DNA of 64,000 bases from Caldicellulosiruptor diazotrophicus. GTDB lineage: Bacteria > Bacillota > Thermoanaerobacteria > Caldicellulosiruptorales > Caldicellulosiruptoraceae. The position numbers and the translations under genes were made by a program. The notes beneath the pieces are model-generated. The model was not told the DNA's origin. It made no database searches and worked only from the letters and a program-made list of their open reading frames with translations. Below are positions 32,436-40,364 of this stretch, piece after piece; within the stretch, counting starts at the first letter, position 1, and the number at the start of each line of letters is the position of its first letter. The stretch covers positions 610,001-674,000 of the forward strand of contig NZ_AP024480.1 of NCBI RefSeq assembly GCF_017347585.1, read 5' to 3'.

Positions 32436-33017
32436 ATGGAAGAAAGAATACCTAAGGTTTACACTTATGCAGACTATCTTGGGTTTCCAGAGGACGCAAG
32501 GGTAGAACTTATTGATGGTGTCATTTATGATATGAGCCCTGCACCTTCAAGGGTACACCAGAAGATTATCTTTGAATTGACTTTGATTTTTGGAAATTAT
32601 ATTAAACAAAATAAAAAACCTTGTGAACTTTACACAGCCCCGTTTGATGTTGTCCTTGTAGAGGAAGGACAGGATGAAAGCAAAGCAATAAACGTTGTCC
32701 AGCCCGACATATCAATCATATGCAATAAGAAAAAACTCACTGAAAGAGGCTGCGTTGGAGCTCCTGAGATGATAATTGAGGTTGTGTCAGAATATAATCC
32801 ATCTCACGACTATGTAAGAAAGCTAAACCTGTATAATCAGTTTAAAGTCAAAGAGTATTGGATTGTCAATCCCAACAACCAAATAATTTTGATATATAGA
32901 CTCAAAGACAATGAAGATTACTTGCCGCCAGAAGTTTACACATTCAATGATAAAGTCAAAGTTGGTATATTTGAAGACCTTATAATAGACTTTGCACAAA
33001 TCAAAGAGGTGTTATAA
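32436..33017 (+). CDS. Uma2 family (DUF820) putative endonuclease, copy 1
   Basis: A 193-residue PD-(D/E)XK-fold protein. ELIDGVIYDMSPAPSRVHQ, QPDISIIC (acidic site) and EMIIEVVSE followed by KLNLYNQFKVKEYWIVNP are Uma2 hallmarks. These nuclease-like proteins are multicopy in many cyanobacteria and thermophilic Firmicutes, and their role is unproven. AAGGTG precedes ATG 32436. It is paralogous to the gene at 39659-40240, nearly identical in the C-terminal third and more diverged at the N-terminus. Each copy is followed by the same 47-base spacer and tRNA-Arg sequence. Confidence 0.85.
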   Translation: MEERIPKVYTYADYLGFPEDARVELIDGVIYDMSPAPSRVHQKIIFELTLIFGNYIKQNKKPCELYTAPFDVVLVEEGQDESKAINVVQPDISIICNKKKLTERGCVGAPEMIIEVVSEYNPSHDYVRKLNLYNQFKVKEYWIVNPNNQIILIYRLKDNEDYLPPEVYTFNDKVKVGIFEDLIIDFAQIKEVL

Positions 33018-33064
33018 AATGCCTACCAAACATTATTCCAAACCTCAAACCCCTTGAAAACAAA

Positions 33065-33109
33065 TGGCGCGCCCAGGAGGACTCGAACCCCCAACCCTCA
33101 GATCCGTAG
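33065..33109 (-). pseudogene. Truncated tRNA-Arg (3' half), probable attachment-site repeat
   Basis: The 45 bases are identical to 40288-40332, the 3' half of tRNA-Arg(ACG): encoded CCA, 3' acceptor strand, T-arm, variable loop and anticodon arm to the anticodon. Identity stops within the anticodon loop (after GATCCGTAG on the plus strand), and the 5' half is absent. This is the classic footprint of an element integrated into a tRNA anticodon loop. Confidence 0.85.
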
Positions 33110-33241
33110 ATTGACGGGATATCTTTTTACAAACTTTAACAAATCGTATAACGCTTGATACATCTTAATTACAAGGATTTGAGAATTTATTTCAAGTCGT
33201 TAAAAATCACGTTTTTTTATTTCGGTAGCTGTAGTGAAATT

Positions 33242-33686
33242 TTAGTTGCGGTTGTAGTCATTTATTCCTAATTTTTCTTTTAGTGCTTCTTGAAGCACTT
33301 GAGAAAAATTTATGTTATTCTTTTCTGCTAATATGTTTAACCACTGAGGGATTGTTAAAGTCTTTTTTACTGCTTTATTGTCCATCTTATGCCGAACAAG
33401 AGGCATCCATACTTCAATCAACATTGGAATTTGATTTTGTCCAAAGTTTTAAGTTGTTCACAGGTGTTGGCTCGGGTATTGATTCATTATCTTTTTCCAT
33501 ACTCCAAAGATATAGTCCTAATACTTCTTTTGCGTTTTTTACTGCTTCATCTAAGGTATCAGCACATGAAATACAACCGGGCAGGTCGGGAAATTCAATT
33601 GTTATTCCGTCATCATCAAAAGTAAAAATGGCAGGAAAGATATAAGTATCTCTATTCATTTCTTTTTCACTCCCCAATATCTTCAA
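33242..33686 (-). pseudogene. hicB: hicB antitoxin, frameshifted into two reading frames
   Basis: Two overlapping frames together match an intact HicB. 33414-33686 encodes the RNase-H-like antitoxin domain (IEFPDLPGCISCADTLDEA, ending PEPTP and a spurious tail). 33242-33424 encodes the ribbon-helix-helix DNA-binding end (KTLTIPQWLNILAEKNNINF, SQVLQEALKEKLG). The intact paralogue at 35473-35889 joins the same parts in one frame. A single frameshift near 33420-33460 explains the break. The downstream frame has ATGs but no ribosome site. It overlaps hicA by 20 bases. Confidence 0.8.
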
Positions 33687-33876
33687 TTTTAATTCCAGCT
33701 TGTTTTAAAATCCTTTTAACTGTTCTTATTGGCAAATTCTTTTTGGGATGAGGTACTGTGACTTTTCCTTTTTTGCTTGGATGTTTAAATTGATAGTGGT
33801 CTCCTTTAACCGCCTCTAAGTACCATCCATCAGCTATTAGTATTTTTATAATCTCTCGTGAAGAATAAGCTTTCAT
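33667..33876 (-). CDS. hicA: HicA toxin (mRNA interferase), copy 1
   Basis: A 69-residue HicA with a double-stranded-RNA-binding-like fold. SSREIIKILIADGWY starts it, the catalytic histidine lies in KGDHYQFKHP, and VTVPHPKKNLPIRTVKRILK closes the core. HicA toxins cleave mRNA and are inactivated by HicB. All expected residues are intact while the partner hicB downstream is frameshifted, so neutralisation may depend on the separated HicB domain or on the second HicB. A TTGACA-like box lies upstream on the minus strand (33909-33914). Confidence 0.88.
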   Translation of the reverse strand: MKAYSSREIIKILIADGWYLEAVKGDHYQFKHPSKKGKVTVPHPKKNLPIRTVKRILKQAGIKIEDIGE

Positions 33877-34078
33877 TCAACTTATCTTTTCATCATTATT
33901 TTAATACGTGTCAATAATTTGTTAATTTAATCCTCAAGTTTTACCAAATTTAAAACCTTAACAAACCTTAAGTTTTACTAAGTAGCTTTTTCTCAAGATT
34001 CTGGAGTTCAAACTCAAGCCTGCAAAGAACAGACAGGCTCCAAAAAACATTGAAAACTTGCGGTCACATATGCAAACC

Positions 34079-34090
34079 CCAGCGCGCTGG
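34079..34090. repeat. 12-bp perfect palindrome
   Basis: CCAGCGCGCTGG is a perfect, unusually GC-rich palindrome in AT-rich surroundings, 30 bases after a ttgcggtcac word. Confidence 0.7.
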
Positions 34091-34231
34091 TCCTGATTGA
34101 AAAGCTGCAGAGATTTACAATGCCCTACCATTTTAAAATGACTTTCCAAGTTAGGAAGTCACCATTTTAGGACTCAAAATTTAAAGTTTTATGTTGCTCT
34201 TTTTTAGGGACTCCGAAATCTTCGAATAGTT

Positions 34232-34262
34232 TATAGGGTGTCGTGAATTTCGACGCCCTATA
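34232..34262. repeat. 12-bp stem hairpin
   Basis: TATAGGGTGTCG (34232-34243) pairs with CGACGCCCTATA (34251-34262), all 12 positions with one G-T wobble, around the loop TGAATTT. As DNA it is an inverted repeat with one mismatch. The compensated wobble suggests a structured RNA or a single-strand DNA signal. Confidence 0.75.
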
Positions 34263-34527
34263 TTTAGGATGTTCCAAGTTAGAATACCCTTTGTAGAGTG
34301 TTCTCCAAAGGTTAGCATTTGCTAGCATGTCAAAGCATACAAATTTCGTCGGCTTGGCAGAAAACAGACAACGAATTTCATCGGCTGTTAAACTTGAATA
34401 ACTGCCATTTTGAGATGTGCCAAGGTTGATAAGCTTTAAAGAGAGGTCAAAGCTGTAGCTTAGTTTGACATTTCTTAACACAAGACAGCATTTACAAAAT
34501 AATTTGACACTTCTTGACAATTTAAAA

Positions 34528-34551
34528 CTGTTAACCTGTTAACCTGTTAAT
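34528..34551. repeat. Three tandem 8-base repeats (iteron-like)
   Basis: CTGTTAAC, CTGTTAAC and CTGTTAAT are adjacent at 34528-34535, 34536-34543 and 34544-34551. Each contains the palindrome GTTAAC or its variant. Related words recur at about 34610-34635 (GTTAATTTGTCAACCTGTCA). Confidence 0.65.
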
Positions 34552-34582
34552 CTTTTCTTGCTGGTTGTTAAGCTTGTTACAC

Positions 34583-34601
34583 TTTGACCGCTGCGGTCAA
34601 A
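34583..34601. repeat. 19-bp palindrome with single-base centre
   Basis: TTTGACCGC T GCGGTCAAA is perfectly symmetric around T34592. Shape and length suit a dimeric protein operator or a nicking/binding site. Confidence 0.75.
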
Positions 34602-34943
34602 ATCAGCTCTGTTAATTTGTCAACCTGTCATGCTAAACTTTGCATTTGACACGTTTGACAACCTTCTCAAAGCATTTTAAAAGCTTCTACAACACGCAAA
34701 AGAGACGAGAGGGATAAAAGTACGACCTGGCACTCAGATATGGCTTATAAGCCACAGTAAAAATGGAAATGCAGTCAATGTTTGTGATGCAGTAATTTGC
34801 TGCACCCTTGCAAGGCACCACAAAATAGGGTACACCTCACCAAATGTCACATCCTTAAAGTCCTAAATACCTTCCACGTTAGAGTTTACAACGCTTTGCT
34901 GGTCTTTAGAGGGTGGTTAAAATGTGTCAAAATGGGACATTTC

Positions 34944-34970
34944 CTTTTGTAATCTTACAAAAGTTTTTGC
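34944..34970. repeat. 20-bp palindrome followed by T-run
   Basis: CTTTTGTAA TC TTACAAAAG (34944-34963) is perfectly symmetric and is followed by TTTTTGC. It could act as a weak intrinsic terminator, but no gene ends just upstream on the plus strand. Confidence 0.6.
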
Positions 34971-35215
34971 TTATCATATTTAAATATTTTAGTCATTTTG
35001 CATTTGCTGATTTATTTGTTTTTAAGCAATTTTAAAATTATTTTAGACTTTTTAAGCCAAAATACAAAACTTTGTTTGTTTTTAGCCCTTTTTGTTTAAC
35101 CCCCCTCGTGTGCGTGGGGAGTGCAGGTTTTTGAAGCTGGGCCCTCTGGTCTCAAAGGATTTTGTTTTTCGGTCAAAGTGGGGGGATATACAAAAATTGT
35201 TCGTGGAAAATATTA

Positions 35216-35245
35216 TTGACACGTGTCAAAAACACGTGTTAAAAT
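35216..35245 (+). promoter_or_regulatory. hicAB-2 promoter with two CACGTG-centred palindromes
   Basis: TTGACA (35216-35221) and TAAAAT (35240-35245) at 18-base spacing. Two palindromes lie between and over them: GACACGTGTC (35218-35227) and AACACGTGTT (35231-35240), centres 13 bases apart. HicB carries a C-terminal DNA-binding domain and HicAB systems are autoregulated, so these are probable HicB operators. Confidence 0.75.
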
Positions 35246-35267
35246 AGTTTTGTGAGGTGGAGATGTA

Positions 35268-35450
35268 TTGAAACCAAAAGAATTGATAAAAATACTTAAA
35301 GAAGATGGCTGGTATGAGGTAAGGCAGAGAGGTTCACATAAGCAATTTAGACATCCTGTTAAAAAAGGATTAGTTACAATTCCATTCCACAATAAAGACC
35401 TTGACATAAAAACACTCAATAGCATTCTCAAGCAGGCAGGATTAAAATAA
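35268..35450 (+). CDS. hicA: HicA toxin (mRNA interferase), copy 2
   Basis: A 60-residue HicA. PKELIKILKEDGWYEVRQRG leads to the catalytic histidine in GSHKQFRHP, then TIPFHNKDLDIKTLNSILKQ. The start is TTG 35268 with GAGGTGG (35254-35260) at normal distance; the ATG at 35263 meets a stop at once. hicB follows with its ATG 22 bases after this stop. It is a paralogue of the minus-strand HicA at 33667-33876, and the two modules point away from each other. Confidence 0.9.
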   Translation: MKPKELIKILKEDGWYEVRQRGSHKQFRHPVKKGLVTIPFHNKDLDIKTLNSILKQAGLK

Positions 35451-35472
35451 ATTGAGCAAGGGGGAAAGAATA

Positions 35473-35889
35473 ATGAAAGATAAGTATATTTTCCCAGCTA
35501 TATTTGAACCGGCAGAAAAAGAAGGCTACGTTGTTACATTTCCAGACTTACCCGGTTGTATAACAGAAGGTAAAAATCTTGAAGAAGCTTTATACATGGC
35601 AAAAGAAGCTTTGGAGCTGCACATCTATGGTTTAGAAGAAGATGGAGAAAAAATACCTGAACCTACACCACCAGAAAAATTGAATGTTTCAAGAGGTGCT
35701 TTTGTAGTTCCAATCATTGCATATATGCCACCTGTTAGGGAAGAGATAGCTAACAAAAGCGTAAATAAAACGGTGACACTTCCAAGATGGTTAAGCAGGG
35801 CAGCTGAAGAAGCACATATTAATTTTTCGCAGGTTTTGCAACAAGCTTTGAAAGAAAAACTTGGAATAAAAGAGCGAAAAAATGCATAA
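35473..35889 (+). CDS. hicB: HicB antitoxin, copy 2 (intact)
   Basis: A 138-residue HicB. The N-terminal partial RNase H fold has VVTFPDLPGCITEGKNLEEA and binds HicA. A linker with MPPVREE leads to a C-terminal ribbon-helix-helix or Arc-like segment (VTLPRWLSRAAEEAHINFSQ, VLQQALKEKLG) for DNA binding. ATG 35473 with AGGGGGAAAG upstream is chosen over the in-frame TTG 35452. It is expected to repress the operon through the palindromes at 35218-35240. It may also act on the frameshifted module at 33242-33876. Confidence 0.88.
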   Translation: MKDKYIFPAIFEPAEKEGYVVTFPDLPGCITEGKNLEEALYMAKEALELHIYGLEEDGEKIPEPTPPEKLNVSRGAFVVPIIAYMPPVREEIANKSVNKTVTLPRWLSRAAEEAHINFSQVLQQALKEKLGIKERKNA

Positions 35890-35903
35890 AAGATATTTTC
35901 AGC

Positions 35904-36836
35904 TTACAAAGCTAACTTTTTGACCACTCTTTTTAATTGTTCTCTGTACTTGCTGCCATACTTTTGTACCATCGAAAGATGTGAAAGACAAAATACAAAG
36001 TAATCTTTAAGAAGTCTTACATTGTAGACTGTGAGATTATCCCAGTTGCGTTCAATAAACTCTTCTACTTCCCACTTGGCAGCAAGAAGCTTCATTCTGT
36101 CCTGTTCACCTTGTTGTTTTAAGACCCTCAGCTTGTCCAACTGTGGTATTGTAGACAAAACCTCAAGCTGTTTTCTTTTCTCCTCTCTATCAATAACAGT
36201 TGCCTCAACTGGTGAATAGCCAAAATTACTACCACTTGCTATGTGCACAGCTGGGCAGGATATAAACACTGTCAAGTCGTCAAGATCTGCTTCAAACTGT
36301 TCTTGTCTCATCTTGGCTATTATCTTTCTTCTTGCTTTTTTGAACACCTTATCACTGGCAGGTGGATTCTTTCCTGTGGAGATGTAATATAAAACCTTCT
36401 CTTTTTCCTCATCAGTCAAGGTATCAAAATACCTTTGCAGCTTATCAATAGTGTCTTTTCTAATCATTTCTCTTTCAACTGAATAACCATCTGAGATTAT
36501 ATCTGCAACTGTAGATGTATCTTCCTCTGGTTCTTTTGATACTGGACTGTCCAAAGAGATGGCATAAGATAACTTGTATTTTGGCAAGCTTCTTTTTATC
36601 TTGCTCTCAATCACCTTGCAAGCATAGGTAGAAAAACTGCCTTTGGCAGGGTCATAGTTCTTTGCTGCAACAACAAGACCAATATACCCTTCACTGACAA
36701 GGTCATCCACTTCATAGTAATAGCCATTTGGACATGGCATAAATTTATTTGCAACATGATACACAAGCTTTAAGTTGTCGACAATTAGAAGCTGTCTCTG
36801 GGATTCTGTAAGCTGCGGTAAAGCTGTTTGCTGCAT
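35904..36836 (-). CDS. Sigma-70 family-like factor with long C-terminal extension
   Basis: A 310-residue protein. Residues about 20-90 form sigma region 2: NLKLVYHVANKFM, then EVDDLVSEGYIGLVVAAKNY and SFSTYACKVIESKIKRSL. Residues about 135-175 resemble a reduced region 4 (LTDEEKEKVLYYIS, then KKARRKIIAKMR). The last 130 residues are a helical extension not typical of sigma factors. Its strong AAAGGAG and closeness to the IS-interrupted small gene upstream suggest an operon with the HTH gene at 38491. Phage-type late-gene activators of this kind occur in mobile elements; that role is inferred. Confidence 0.7.
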   Translation of the reverse strand: MQQTALPQLTESQRQLLIVDNLKLVYHVANKFMPCPNGYYYEVDDLVSEGYIGLVVAAKNYDPAKGSFSTYACKVIESKIKRSLPKYKLSYAISLDSPVSKEPEEDTSTVADIISDGYSVEREMIRKDTIDKLQRYFDTLTDEEKEKVLYYISTGKNPPASDKVFKKARRKIIAKMRQEQFEADLDDLTVFISCPAVHIASGSNFGYSPVEATVIDREEKRKQLEVLSTIPQLDKLRVLKQQGEQDRMKLLAAKWEVEEFIERNWDNLTVYNVRLLKDYFVFCLSHLSMVQKYGSKYREQLKRVVKKLAL

Positions 36837-37039
36837 TTGTTTATTGCCACTCCTTTTATTGCAAGCTTAGTTTAAAACAGAAGGCTCATCTGGTTCATGA
36901 AGTGCTTTGATAAGTTCTCTAATACTATCTTCAATCTGCGGTTGATTTGAGTTTTTCTCATCAAGTCCAAGAGCAAGCCTCTGTCCTTTCTGCACCCTCT
37001 CAACCACCAAAGCCAGTTTTTCAAATGAACACTCGAATA

Positions 37040-38292
37040 GGTGTAGAGATATTTACCATAGCGAAAGAATGTGCGAAAATAGTAAGGAGAAACTCATAAA
37101 AAGAATTGAGGCTGCCTCCATCCTGACATGAATATAATTAAAAAGTGTAATATACCATTCAAAAGAAAAATCAAAAAACTACCAGGATGGGAGGACAGCC
37201 TGCTATGAATATTAACCATATCACGAAATAAGAAAATATCTCCCGAAAAAGCAAGAGAATTAGTCCGGAAAGTCTTTGTGGTGAACAACAAAAACCTATC
37301 AAAAACTGCTAAAATATTAGGTGTATCAAGACAAACTGTAAGAAGGGCAATTTACGGTCCTCTTGAGGATAAATCCAGAAAACCTAAAACTTGTCCAAGA
37401 AAACTTTCCTCTGAACTTGAAAAGCCTATTTCCCAAGAGGCTAAAAGAACAGGATTCAAGAATACATACGTCTTTCACTTTATTTGTTCAGAAAATGCGG
37501 AGTTAAAATAAGTGAAAACACGATAAAGTCAATTCTCAAAAGAAATGCTATACCAAGAAAATCAAGAAAGACAAAAAAGGGTGAAAAAGAAGTTTGTACG
37601 ATTATGAAGCCCTCATTCCGTTTTCTGAATTCCAGCTTGATACAAAACATCTTTTAGATAAAGACAGTCTTCCAAAAGAAGTATATGAACACATGAAAAA
37701 ATACAATCTACCGTGTTATGAATGGAACATGATAGATGTTGCAACAAGAGCAAGATCTACAGCTTACTCCTATGAACCATCATCTACTTTTGGCTTCATG
37801 TTCATATCTTTAGTTGCATTATGGTTAAGAACTCATAATGTAAGAAATCAAATAAAAATCCGATTAGATAATGGAGCAGAATTTTGTGGAGGAAGCGAAA
37901 AAAAGTTAAAGGAGTGGAATGAGATGCTGTCATTTCTTGAAGTAGAGCTTAATCCTATTCCACCTAAGGCAAAACATCTAATGGGTATAATTGAAAACTC
38001 ACATAGTTCTGATGACGAGTATTTTTTGATGATTCATGCTGAAAGATGTAAAACAAAAGATGAATTTATGTTAAAAGCTCAAAGATGGCAGGATACATGG
38101 AATTTCTTCAAACCTCATAATGGTAAAGGAATGAATGGGAGGACACCATTTGAAAAATTCAATGATTCTAAAACTTTGGTTTTCTCCCATGTATTTCAAT
38201 TTCCTACTTTACTTCTTGAAGACTTACTAAAGAAAGTGGAAACTTTTTATTCTCTATTCTGTAACAAATTAGGTGGTAAATATGTCTTCACC
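37040..38292 (+). mobile_element. Insertion sequence with 18-bp terminal inverted repeats (decayed)
   Basis: The left end GGTGTAGAGATATTTACC (37040-37057) is matched inverted by the right end GGTAAATATGTCTTCACC (38275-38292), 16 of 18 positions. The 1253-bp element carries a broken DDE transposase. Its left end also holds a long inverted repeat (37109-37125 against 37183-37201). No target duplication is evident at these boundaries, and precise removal restores an open gene. Confidence 0.75.
37205..38292 (+). pseudogene. DDE (rve-type) transposase, multiply frameshifted
   Basis: The first readable block, 37278-37511, has the helix-turn-helix LSKTAKILGVSRQTVRRAIY. A middle block in another frame encodes KISENTIKSILKRNAIPRKS (about 37510-37570). 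The third block starts about 37594 and holds the integrase core: acidic residues in EFQLDTKHLLD, KIRLDNGAEFCGG and HLMGIIENSHS, giving D, D and E with a D-to-E gap of 42 positions. Frameshifts near 37460-37510 and 37590, and probably one at the N-terminus, make it inactive. The third frame reads through the right inverted repeat to a stop at 38433. Confidence 0.8.
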
Positions 38293-38490
38293 ACGTGCCA
38301 AATCTTTCATAGTCTATATGCTTATCTAAATCTATATTCTTGTATTGTTTTATCATTGTTTGTTCCTCCTTTTGTTACAAAGCCACCAATACTTACAACC
38401 TCTACCATTCCTATTAAGCCATTCTGCCGATGACCGCACAGAATAGCGATTACAGAGAAGAAAGGGGATAGCCAACATGGTAAGTACCTG

Positions 38491-38709
38491 CTATTTATTC
38501 TGGCAAGCCTGTTCATTGACCCATTTTATAAAAGCTTCTTTGGGTATTAGAATTCGTCGCTGCCTAGCTAAGATTTTGGGAAAGTCCTTTCTGTGTACCA
38601 AAGTAAGTATTACATTGTAGCTTATTCCCAGCATTTGGGCAGCTTCTTTAATGCTTATGGTGAACTTCTCTATCTTTTCTTTTTGTGGTTGGGGATTGTA
38701 GATTTCCAT
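38491..38709 (-). CDS. Small HTH (excisionase/MerR-like) DNA-binding protein
   Basis: A 72-residue protein with one helix-turn-helix of the HTH_17/excisionase type: ISIKEAAQMLGISYNVILTL, then a wing-like RRILIPKEAFIKWVNEQ. AAAGGAGG lies just upstream of its ATG. Such proteins act as excisionases or as Cro-like early regulators in integrated elements. A perfect consensus promoter (38773-38801 minus) drives it, with operator boxes over and around that promoter. It is the first gene of the leftward operon that includes the split 78-codon gene and the sigma-like factor. Confidence 0.8.
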   Translation of the reverse strand: MEIYNPQPQKEKIEKFTISIKEAAQMLGISYNVILTLVHRKDFPKILARQRRILIPKEAFIKWVNEQACQNK

Positions 38710-38725
38710 CAGAATTGCCTCCTTT

Positions 38726-38856
38726 ATGTTTCAATAATAATCAAAATAACGTTTCATTCTTCATCAATATTAATTATAATGTTTCATATAATTTTTGTCA
38801 ATAAAAATGTTTCATTTTTATTTGTTCAATGTTATAATGTATTAAAAAGAAACATT
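38726..38856. promoter_or_regulatory. Operator array of ATGTTTCAT boxes between divergent regulators
   Basis: Boxes: ATGTTTCAA 38726-38734, ACGTTTCAT 38749-38757, ATGTTTCAT 38779-38787, ATGTTTCAT 38807-38815, and the inverse GAAACAT at 38849-38855. One lies between the -35 and -10 of the leftward promoter, one just upstream of its -35, and one after the rightward -10 (TATAAT 38833-38838). This is the arrangement expected of a repressor-controlled switch. The binder is presumably the XRE protein. Confidence 0.75.
38773..38801 (-). promoter_or_regulatory. Consensus leftward promoter of the HTH/sigma-like operon
   Basis: On the minus strand, TTGACA (38796-38801), 17-base spacer, TATAAT (38773-38778): a perfect consensus. 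An operator box at 38779-38787 occupies the spacer. Confidence 0.85.
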
Positions 38857-38874
38857 ATGGAGGTGATTAACTTG

Positions 38875-39678
38875 ATGGAAGAAAATATTTTTGCTATGCG
38901 TTTAAAAGAGTTGCGTGAAAAAGCAAATTTAACTCAAAACGAATTAGCAGAAAAGCTTGGTATAGGAAGAGCTACTTTAAGTAATTATGAACTTGGCGTG
39001 AGAAAGCCAGATATTGATACTTTGCAAAAAATAGCTATGTATTTTGATGTTTCAAGCGATTATCTTCTTGGAATTTCCTCAATAAAGAAAAGAGATTTTT
39101 TAAATTCATTGGGGAAAATTACAAAAGAGGAAAACATTAAAGAACTGAAAGACTTTTTTAAGAATAAGGAAAACGTAAAAGCTTATTTTGAATATATAGT
39201 TTCATTGTTTGAACCTCTATTAAAAGTAATTTCTATTTATGAAGACGAAAAAATTTTAGTTGATAAATATGATGAAATAAAGAAAAACTTTTTAGATCTT
39301 TTTATGCCAATTTTGGATATGTTAGAGGCTTTATTAATAATTTCTTATAAAAAGAGTTATCCTTTTATACTAAACACAAATGTATTTGATGATGCGCTTT
39401 TGTTTTTAAAAGATAAAAAATCAAAATTTTTCATTTTTGATATACCAACATTGATTAACGAAACACACGAAATAGTAAAGATGTTTGTAGAACAGTTGAG
39501 TGGTAAGTCAAAAGCAATTTCAGATAATAGTTATGCACTATACAATTTTTTCTATGAAAATATTACAGATTTACAAGAAAAACTATTAATGACTGTAGGA
39601 GTACTTTGGCAAATTTCCCAAAATAAAGATTTAAAATCTATTAAAGAAGGTGAATCCAATGGAAGCCAGAATACCTAA
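38875..39678 (+). CDS. XRE family transcriptional regulator (Cro/CI-type repressor)
   Basis: A 267-residue protein. The N-terminal 60 residues form a canonical Cro/CI helix-turn-helix (LKELREKANLTQNELAEKLG, IGRATLSNYELGVRKPDIDT, SSDYLLG). The remaining 200 residues are helical and unrecognised, with no LexA-type peptidase motif. GGAGGTG (38859-38865) sits nine bases before ATG 38875. It is divergent from the small HTH gene across repeated ATGTTTCAT boxes, so it is probably the element's repressor. Its 3' end overlaps the Uma2 gene by 20 bases, which couples their expression. Confidence 0.87.
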   Translation: MEENIFAMRLKELREKANLTQNELAEKLGIGRATLSNYELGVRKPDIDTLQKIAMYFDVSSDYLLGISSIKKRDFLNSLGKITKEENIKELKDFFKNKENVKAYFEYIVSLFEPLLKVISIYEDEKILVDKYDEIKKNFLDLFMPILDMLEALLIISYKKSYPFILNTNVFDDALLFLKDKKSKFFIFDIPTLINETHEIVKMFVEQLSGKSKAISDNSYALYNFFYENITDLQEKLLMTVGVLWQISQNKDLKSIKEGESNGSQNT

Positions 39679-40240
39679 AATATACACGTATGCAGACTAT
39701 CTTCAGCTGCCACAAGACGCAAGGGTAGAGCTCATTGATGGCGTTATTTATGATATGAGCCCTGCACCTTCAAGAACACATCAGAAAATAGTGGTGGAGT
39801 TGACAACAGTAATAAATAACTATCTTAAAGCAAGTAAAAAGTTTTGCGAAATATATACAGCCCCATTTGATGTAGTCCTAATAGAGGAAGGGCAGGATGA
39901 AAAGCAAGCAACAAACGTTGTTCAGCCTGATATTTCAATTATTTGCGACAAGAGAAAGCTTACTGATAAAGGCTGTGTTGGAGTTCCTGAGATGATAATT
40001 GAGGTTGTATCTGAGAGCAATTTTTCGCATGACTATATCCGAAAACTCAATCTTTATACACAATTTAGGGTCAAAGAATACTGGATTGTCAACCCTAAGA
40101 ATCAAACAATCTTGGTATATAGACTTAAAGACAATGAAGATTATCTGCCACCAGAAGCTTACACATTCAATGATAAAGTCAAAGTTGGTATCTTTGAAGA
40201 CCTTATAATAGACTTTGCTCAAATAAAAGAGGTGTTATAA
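39659..40240 (+). CDS. Uma2 family (DUF820) putative endonuclease, copy 2
   Basis: A 193-residue PD-(D/E)XK-like protein with ELIDGVIYDMSPAPSRTHQ, QPDISIICDKRK, EMIIEVVSES and FRVKEYWIVNPKNQ. It is a paralogue of the gene at 32436-33017. The last 45 residues are almost identical, while residues 40-75 differ at many positions. It overlaps the XRE gene, and GAAGGTG before ATG 39659 serves as ribosome site. Its position beside the tRNA attachment site, where an integrase would usually be, is notable. Nuclease activity is inferred from family only. Confidence 0.85.
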   Translation: MEARIPKIYTYADYLQLPQDARVELIDGVIYDMSPAPSRTHQKIVVELTTVINNYLKASKKFCEIYTAPFDVVLIEEGQDEKQATNVVQPDISIICDKRKLTDKGCVGVPEMIIEVVSESNFSHDYIRKLNLYTQFRVKEYWIVNPKNQTILVYRLKDNEDYLPPEAYTFNDKVKVGIFEDLIIDFAQIKEVL

Positions 40241-40287
40241 AATGCCTACCAAACATTATTCCAAACCTCAAAACCCTTGAAAACAAC

Positions 40288-40364
40288 TGGCGCGCCCAGG
40301 AGGACTCGAACCCCCAACCCTCAGATCCGTAGTCTGATGCTCTATCCAATTGAGCTATGGGCGC
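40288..40364 (-). tRNA. tRNA-Arg (anticodon ACG)
   Basis: A 77-nt cloverleaf. Acceptor GCGCCCA pairs with TGGGCGC, then G and encoded CCA. The anticodon stem TCAGA/TCTGA holds loop CTACGGA with anticodon ACG, read through inosine for CGN codons. Its 3' half is repeated at 33065-33109, so it is the intact copy at an integration site. Confidence 0.97.

Follow-up and report, generated by a model that had tools for sequence, protein, structure and literature searches.

The window analysed here, 64,000 nt of Caldicellulosiruptor diazotrophicus (G000:C1:610001-674000), contains a 7.2-kb island at a tRNA-Arg(ACG) gene. The island is probably a degenerate member of a Caldicellulosiruptor family of phage satellites that integrate at tRNA genes and resemble the phage-inducible chromosomal islands (PICIs). 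The comparison covered 12 Caldicellulosiruptor genomes, labelled G000-G011 (G002 being C. bescii); L-numbers, like L078, denote individual stretches or islands in these genomes.

The tRNA-Arg(ACG) locus and the island family

A preliminary description of the window had proposed integration at the tRNA via a tyrosine recombinase, based on a 45-base exact copy of the tRNA-Arg 3' half that ends within the anticodon loop. ARAGORN and a direct comparison confirmed the copy: positions 33065-33109 equal 40288-40332 in 45 of 45 nt and the identity stops beyond (A at 33110, T at 40333). As the anticodon lies at position 35 of the tRNA and the copy represents positions 33-77, its end falls within the anticodon loop. 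An exact match of 45 nt from a tRNA 3' end can hardly have arisen by chance, and the same type of repeat was found at 11 other members of the gene family. The bracketed toxin-antitoxin, repressor and sigma-like genes were recovered by Pfam as described, and the proposed mode of integration was supported by relatives that have a tyrosine integrase adjoining the same tRNA. The repeat is exact over the 45 nt but not limited to the tRNA part, as it runs leftward through Uma2: 32420-33109 matches 39643-40332 without gaps over 690 nt, with 120 mismatches (83%). One Uma2 gene, at the same spacing, is therefore part of each repeat. Between the window repeats no integrase gene was present, neither in the list of open reading frames nor in Pfam (no PF00589 match). 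Rfam (E up to 0.1) returned the two tRNAs and one sub-threshold match lying on the tRNA itself, and nothing else.

The order tRNA-Trp ... tRNA-Arg(ACG), tRNA-Leu(GAG) was kept in all 12 genomes, while the distance from tRNA-Trp to tRNA-Arg varied from ~1 kb (G008) up to ~116 kb (G004). The preliminary description had named the presence of the same 7.2 kb in every relative as irreconcilable with integration, and this is not the case. The empty site that it predicted, with tRNA-Arg followed directly by Uma2, exists in two sister genomes, and the window flanks are joined there without the island in one contiguous match (955 nt at 87% in G010, 934 nt at 78% in G008). G006 has the same layout with a two-piece match and an extra 146 nt including the last 24 codons of an integrase, a leftover of the integrase end. 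The notion of an integrated element therefore stood, but the Uma2 gene of the 'empty site' itself forms the right end of an earlier element, and the window integrase has been lost.

Related islands occupy tRNA-Arg(ACG) in G007 (13.0 kb) and G004 (14.0 kb). From the left repeat, both encode HigB, HigA-M78, HicAB, the sigma-like protein, a protein resembling the terminase small subunit (TerS), several small proteins and a primase-helicase of ~850 aa (CHC2, DUF927, Cch HTH). Beyond these lie an HTH_17 gene and, divergent from it, an HTH_3 repressor; Uma2 comes next, and a tyrosine integrase of 399 aa reaches to the tRNA. Where the G004 island is called intact, it should be read with one stop in its TerS row. 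In the 8.5-kb island of G009 a DnaB-like gene replaces the primase, and the integrase is absent like in the window. Common to G000, G004, G007 and the more diverged G009 are the 142 nt of the left end, the sigma-like gene, the Xis-like gene and the right-end Uma2. Since the intact relatives have an integrase at the tRNA and direct repeats of the tRNA 3' part, integration swaps in a new tRNA 3' end and displaces the old one to the opposite side. The G004 island stands in tandem with a 91-kb prophage-like element (G004:C1 ~2031700-2122900, L031-L035) with terminase, tape measure, endolysin and RecT families. Large elements at tRNA-Arg(ACG) in G001 and G002 carry transposases, methyltransferases and an Abi protein, and among 25 families listed of 42 no phage structural family was present. 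In G011 (G011:C1:2884700-2936000, L037-L039), ~49 kb lie between two partial integrase copies (codons 1-272 and 38-399) and not between tRNA repeats.

The sigma-like gene served as a marker for the family. It gave 15 strong matches (68-100% identity) in 10 of the 12 genomes, 14 of them chromosomal and one on the C. bescii plasmid pATHE01, and nothing strong in the one genome from another genus of the same taxonomic family. G005 and G008 lack the marker; both have Uma2 remains at the site and G005 also pieces of the repressor and integrase. No close relative of the protein was found in phages (best 32%), IMG/VR (30%) or the genomes of other species (35%), the weak matches to IMG/VR and to genomes beyond the genus stemming from pattern-based scans that may have left out near relatives of the window genome. 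Direct repeats of a tRNA 3' part (45-88 nt) were found in all 12 chromosomal copies that were checked, 2 of which are inexact (L081 97%, L083 96%); the tRNA genes of the other two copies, L086 and L087, lie beyond the fetched stretches. Six tRNA genes are used as targets: tRNA-Arg(ACG) (islands in G000, G004, G007 and G009), tRNA-Arg(TCT) (G001), tRNA-Thr(CGT) (G002 and G003), tRNA-Pro(CGG) (G001 and G002), tRNA-Trp (G003) and tRNA-Arg(TCG) (G006 and G010).

Terminase, candidate prophage partner and alternative explanations

The island gene beside the sigma-like gene showed a weak match to the terminase-small-subunit family phrog_1206 (1.4e-8). Its product is 26-28% identical to gp36 of Streptococcus phage Dp-1, whose gene lies directly upstream of that for the large subunit (TerL), and 40-42% identical to the product of a G010 gene that likewise lies directly upstream of TerL. 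The G010 TerL is the sole Terminase_3 match in the 12 genomes, in a genome-wide search that covered the Terminase_3 family only. It belongs to a prophage of 28.8 kb, bounded by a tRNA-Thr(CGT) repeat, with genes for TerL, portal, minor head, scaffold, major head, tape-measure and amidase; the left 11.2 kb is identical to the IMG/VR contig IMGVR_UViG_649633025_000001. Just outside the left prophage repeat we observed a satellite-type integrase of intact length (400 aa) and a Uma2 remnant (L091:3644-4846), so that at tRNA-Thr(CGT) the end of a satellite adjoins that of the prophage. In a satellite cycle, the helper phage would lift repression, after which the island would excise and replicate, and the island TerS would direct the helper TerL to package island DNA.

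A working definition of phage satellites comprises an integrase between attachment (att) sites attL and attR, a size of 7-20 kb, regulatory and replication modules, and the absence of viral structural genes (PMC13376191). A full-length integrase frame lies at the tRNA, between the att repeats, in 9 of the 12 att-bounded copies; the window and G009 lack it and that of L083 is frame-broken. The repeat spacing is 7.2-14.0 kb in all 12. Regulatory and replication modules are present in the G007 element and L078 but not together in the window copy, from which the primase has been deleted. On the whole the elements fit the definition, structural families being absent among those listed. For PICIs, the features listed are att sites that are never used by temperate prophages, an own TerS, phage-dependent induction, specific packaging and exclusive genes (PMC6092414). 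The islands have an own TerS by sequence and synteny only, broken in several copies, and their sigma-like protein is without a close phage relative, yet also plasmid-borne. Their att sites are not exclusive: as two tRNA sites are also used by prophage-like elements, we speak of a PICI-like family and not of PICIs proper.

Several observations weigh against a satellite. Induction, replication and packaging are inferred. The TerS of the G010 prophage matches phrog_23746 and not phrog_1206 at 1e-4. The island TerS rows contain one stop in G003 (L082), G004 and G006, all three being left out of the TerS alignment, and only fragments of TerS are left in G000, in G001 and in the second island of G003. 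There is no Terminase_3 match in C. bescii or the window genome, and no helper is known there. Prophages share the tRNA genes, namely tRNA-Arg(ACG) in G004 and tRNA-Thr(CGT) in G010. Furthermore, the absence of structural families holds for the 10 G007/G004 genes scanned and for 25 listed of 54 (51 proteins, five other islands).

In a rival reading the islands are integrative plasmids, capable of replication and integration but not carried in phage particles, and the TerS-like protein binds DNA in some other role. The 8,291-nt pATHE01 (NC_012036) of C. bescii DSM 6725 is an autonomous plasmid. Over 2,790 nt it is 99.96% identical to the tRNA-Pro island in the same genome (L074:1764-4553, L078:5977-8766); this stretch contains the sigma-like gene, the TerS-like gene almost in full and, next to them, ~1.2 kb of further DNA. 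Primase or helicase genes were contained in all intact islands scanned, and the lack of a known helper in C. bescii points the same way. Such plasmids would leave unexplained why the homologue of the TerS-like gene lies directly upstream of TerL in two phages. In addition, the Pfam scans of the G007/G004 island genes revealed no relaxase and pATHE01 is typed as non-mobilizable in PLSDB, so that spread among species would need another vehicle. We consider integrative plasmids unlikely.

It is even less likely that the islands are independently decayed prophages, each without structural genes. The phage-like integrase, repressor, primase and TerS, and the broken genes in several copies, would agree with decay, but prophages decaying separately would not all end up with one compact arrangement, and the islands have one gene order at several tRNA genes, lack structural genes (among the families listed) and retain full-length integrases in 9 of 12 copies. 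Segmental duplication by homologous recombination, with no site-specific integration, could account for a 690-nt repeat spanning Uma2 and for signs of exchange between its copies, but is hardly credible, considering that the interior is mobile-element DNA that is present at other tRNA genes, that the repeat ends recur at a point in the tRNA anticodon region and that integrase-bearing relatives occupy the same spot; homologous recombination may rather belong to the later history of the two repeat ends. An integrative mobilizable or conjugative element was rejected as well: there was no relaxase or conjugation Pfam match in 10 G007/G004 genes or 10 window-region frames.

The satellite reading also bears on a deletion in C. 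bescii. In strain ORCB002, B5X54_RS04240-04260 and RS04275-04290 are reported missing, whereas two genes that lie between these blocks, one hypothetical and one for a sigma-70 protein, were retained; both have copies on pATHE01 and at one other locus (PMC7071700). The order of L078 (CopG-like, four small genes, TerS, sigma, XRE-like HTH, Prim-Pol primase, DUF3987, integrase) lies between 50-nt tRNA-Pro repeats and equals the order of the deletion as reported, the match being made by gene order and description. The simplest reading would be a single excision of the whole 9.3-kb island. Given the 99.96% copy on pATHE01, the two 'retained' genes would then represent reads from other copies.

Contents of the window island and history of its ends

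The features of the window island are listed in Table 1.

Table 1. Features at the tRNA-Arg(ACG) locus, in window positions
Feature	Position	Strand	Basis
Uma2 of left flank, right end of older element	32436..33017	+	comparison with relatives
Integrase-start remnant of older element, same letters as 40242-40254	33019..33031	+	sequence comparison
attL, displaced 45-nt copy of tRNA-Arg(ACG) 3' part	33065..33109	-	exact match
Second HicB, split over two frames	33242..33686	-	translation/homologue comparison
Second HicA	33667..33876	-	Pfam
Conserved non-coding stretch, partly common to pATHE01, candidate cis-acting site	33912..35195	.	alignment
HicA toxin	35268..35450	+	Pfam
HicB antitoxin	35473..35889	+	Pfam
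Sigma-70 region-2 protein, family marker gene	35904..36836	-	Pfam 2.2e-14; 15 strong genus matches
TerS-like C-terminal remnant	36870..37028	-	G000:C1:646870-647028, 58%, residues 113-166
IS-like insert, broken transposase-like frames, in place of ~5 kb of element genes	37028..38299	+	
~100 nt of 5' end of primase-helicase gene	38300..38404	-	blastn to G004 element
HTH_17 protein, excisionase/regulator-like, divergent from repressor	38491..38709	-	Pfam 3.4e-11
HTH_3 (cI-like) repressor	38863..39678	+	Pfam 3.8e-20
Element-borne Uma2, right end, candidate defence family PDC-S03	39650..40240	+	PADLOC 1.9e-58
Integrase-start remnant ATGCCTACCAAAC, remaining gene deleted	40242..40254	+	comparison with int-bearing relatives
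attR core within intact tRNA-Arg(ACG)	40288..40332	-	ARAGORN, sequence match
tRNA-Arg(ACG), integration target	40288..40364	-	ARAGORN, Rfam

The right-end Uma2 is 80% identical to that of the G007 element (tblastn) and the HTH_17 protein 94% to its G007 homologue, which in turn matches an excisionase PHROG at 8e-5. The sigma-like protein contains only sigma-70 region 2, followed by a C-terminal part that is strongly conserved within the family and does not resemble the full sigma factor of the G010 prophage. Integrase, primase and most of TerS are gone, making the window copy unable to move by itself, and an IS-like (insertion sequence-like) insert fills the gap. The remnant of the primase-helicase is a nucleotide match only, a protein search having found nothing. 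The insert is missing from related elements and has ~86-89% matches elsewhere in G002, G009 and G010; as its larger frame gave no Pfam transposase match, the name is based on reading the frame.

The non-coding stretch aligns with the islands L078, L086 and L087, with pATHE01 and partly with L079. Around 100 nt are invariant in the five longer copies and a coding pattern is absent. Together with the sigma-like gene and TerS it constitutes a unit common to islands and pATHE01, and we propose it as a candidate cis-acting origin or packaging site. A 117-aa frame within it (34167-34520) was rejected as a gene because its mismatches are spread evenly over the codon positions; the dN/dS estimates ranged from 0.4 to >1, on very few changes.

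The left-flank Uma2 marks where an earlier member of the family ended on the right, and this member likewise lost its integrase. This follows from G011: there the left Uma2, contiguous with its flank at 94% to the window over 2.7 kb, has kept the first 272 codons of an integrase behind it. The scar of the integrase deletion is alike within a genome and different between genomes, which suggests homologous exchange between the old and new copies: the letters ATGCCTACCAAAC are the same on both sides in G000, and G009, G010 and G001 differ at that place. In G009 an exchange is hard to avoid: no difference separates its two ends along 574 nt that span Uma2, the scar and the tRNA part, and the preceding 90 nt contain 20 mismatches. 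For G000 the comparison is suggestive only. The right Uma2 body of the window has 34/514 mismatches to that of G011 (integrase start kept) and 114/514 to its own left neighbour, and the contrast of 6/176 with 114/514 mismatches between the window ends was significant (Fisher 3e-10) with a boundary set after seeing the data. The last part of the repeat is moreover conserved in every copy (8/97 mismatches between the right end of G000 and the left end of G011, 4/97 between both ends of G000), and given both points the argument depends on the shared scar and on G009. An exchange in which the new end took over the deleted state of the old one explains this pattern; alternatively, a circle already devoid of integrase may have been integrated by homologous recombination. 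The literature listing on gene conversion at integrase remnants in tRNA genes contained a single title, on archaeal inversions.

Around tRNA-Arg(ACG) there are 14 Uma2 copies, 10 of which are full-length from the ATG (193 aa) and 2 of which adjoin a full-length integrase. At tRNA-Arg(TCT), Uma2 was found in 6 of the 12 genomes within the 3 kb fetched, with 5 full-length frames and 1 full-length integrase. Combining both sites, a whole Uma2 accompanies a non-whole integrase in 12 of 20 copies and the reverse was never seen, although this count is no formal test since the copies are related by descent. The window genome has a second relic, at tRNA-Arg(TCT) (G000:C1:270316-271221, L026), with a full-length Uma2 frame and an integrase cut down to its 123 final codons plus a few initial ones. 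For pairs that apparently share the join left by integrase loss, dN/dS (NG86) was 0.09 (G008-G004 left), 0.16 (G000 left-G010), 0.06 (G000 left-G009 left) and 0.11 (G009 left-G010), the left Uma2 of G009 being compared over 154 codons though its open frame has 193. These low values point to purifying selection on the left-flank Uma2 after the loss of the integrase. In PADLOC, Uma2 is placed in the candidate defence family PDC-S03 (2e-54 and 1.9e-58), and HigA-M78 of the intact islands matches PD-Lambda-2_B (4.8e-47, PADLOC). These defence roles are candidate labels, and literature tying Uma2 to phage defence was looked for and none was found.

Tentatively, these data can be joined into a scenario, which we regard as possible but doubtful, in which the tRNA-Arg locus traps and disarms satellites while keeping their defence gene. 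The old Uma2 relic with its deleted integrase would offer homology on both sides of the integrase of a newcomer; homologous exchange would then transfer the deletion to the newcomer, which could no longer leave, and Uma2, as a candidate antiphage gene, would be kept by selection. Separately, pATHE01 would have taken over the packaging cassette of the satellites (TerS, the sigma-like gene and the conserved non-coding site), by which it could travel in phage particles.

Implications and comparison with known systems

If the satellite reading is right, the family is previously undescribed: among the matches listed, the Caldicellulosiruptor literature on prophages, genomic islands and integration/excision contained none. 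An extreme thermophile genus that is used for biomass conversion would then carry an undescribed satellite family, with a candidate helper phage in a sister species (G010). The native plasmid of the genetic workhorse C. bescii might be packageable, and the unexplained ORCB002 deletion would be the excision of an island. The repeated loss of the integrase and survival of Uma2 would constitute a natural series on how mobile islands become resident genes.

The G010 prophage resembles the islands in its TerS homologue (40-42%), in using the att site of L079 and L083 and in the satellite-type integrase by its left end. It differs from them by its full structural and lysis genes and by a sigma factor with regions 2, 3 and 4, which is only 28% identical to the island sigma-like protein. 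pATHE01 has in common with the islands the sigma-like gene, the larger part of the TerS-like gene and DNA next to them; unlike the islands it is a free plasmid, without an integrase match and with another replication gene. Enhancement of plasmid packaging by TerS is on record for the Staphylococcus aureus pathogenicity islands (SaPIs; PMC8494744).

Among known systems, the PICIs and SaPIs of Gram-positive bacteria come closest. The size, the att repeats in tRNA genes, the tyrosine integrase, the divergent repressor and Xis-like genes, the primase/replication genes, and a TerS close to the distal end, with accessory genes beyond it, are the same (PMC6092414, PMC13376191). The islands described here differ in that they share att sites with prophages, that no capsid-redirection gene was recognised and that the helper is only inferred. 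They are further set apart by two arrangements of their own: a sigma-70 region-2 protein adjoins TerS, and Uma2 adjoins the integrase.

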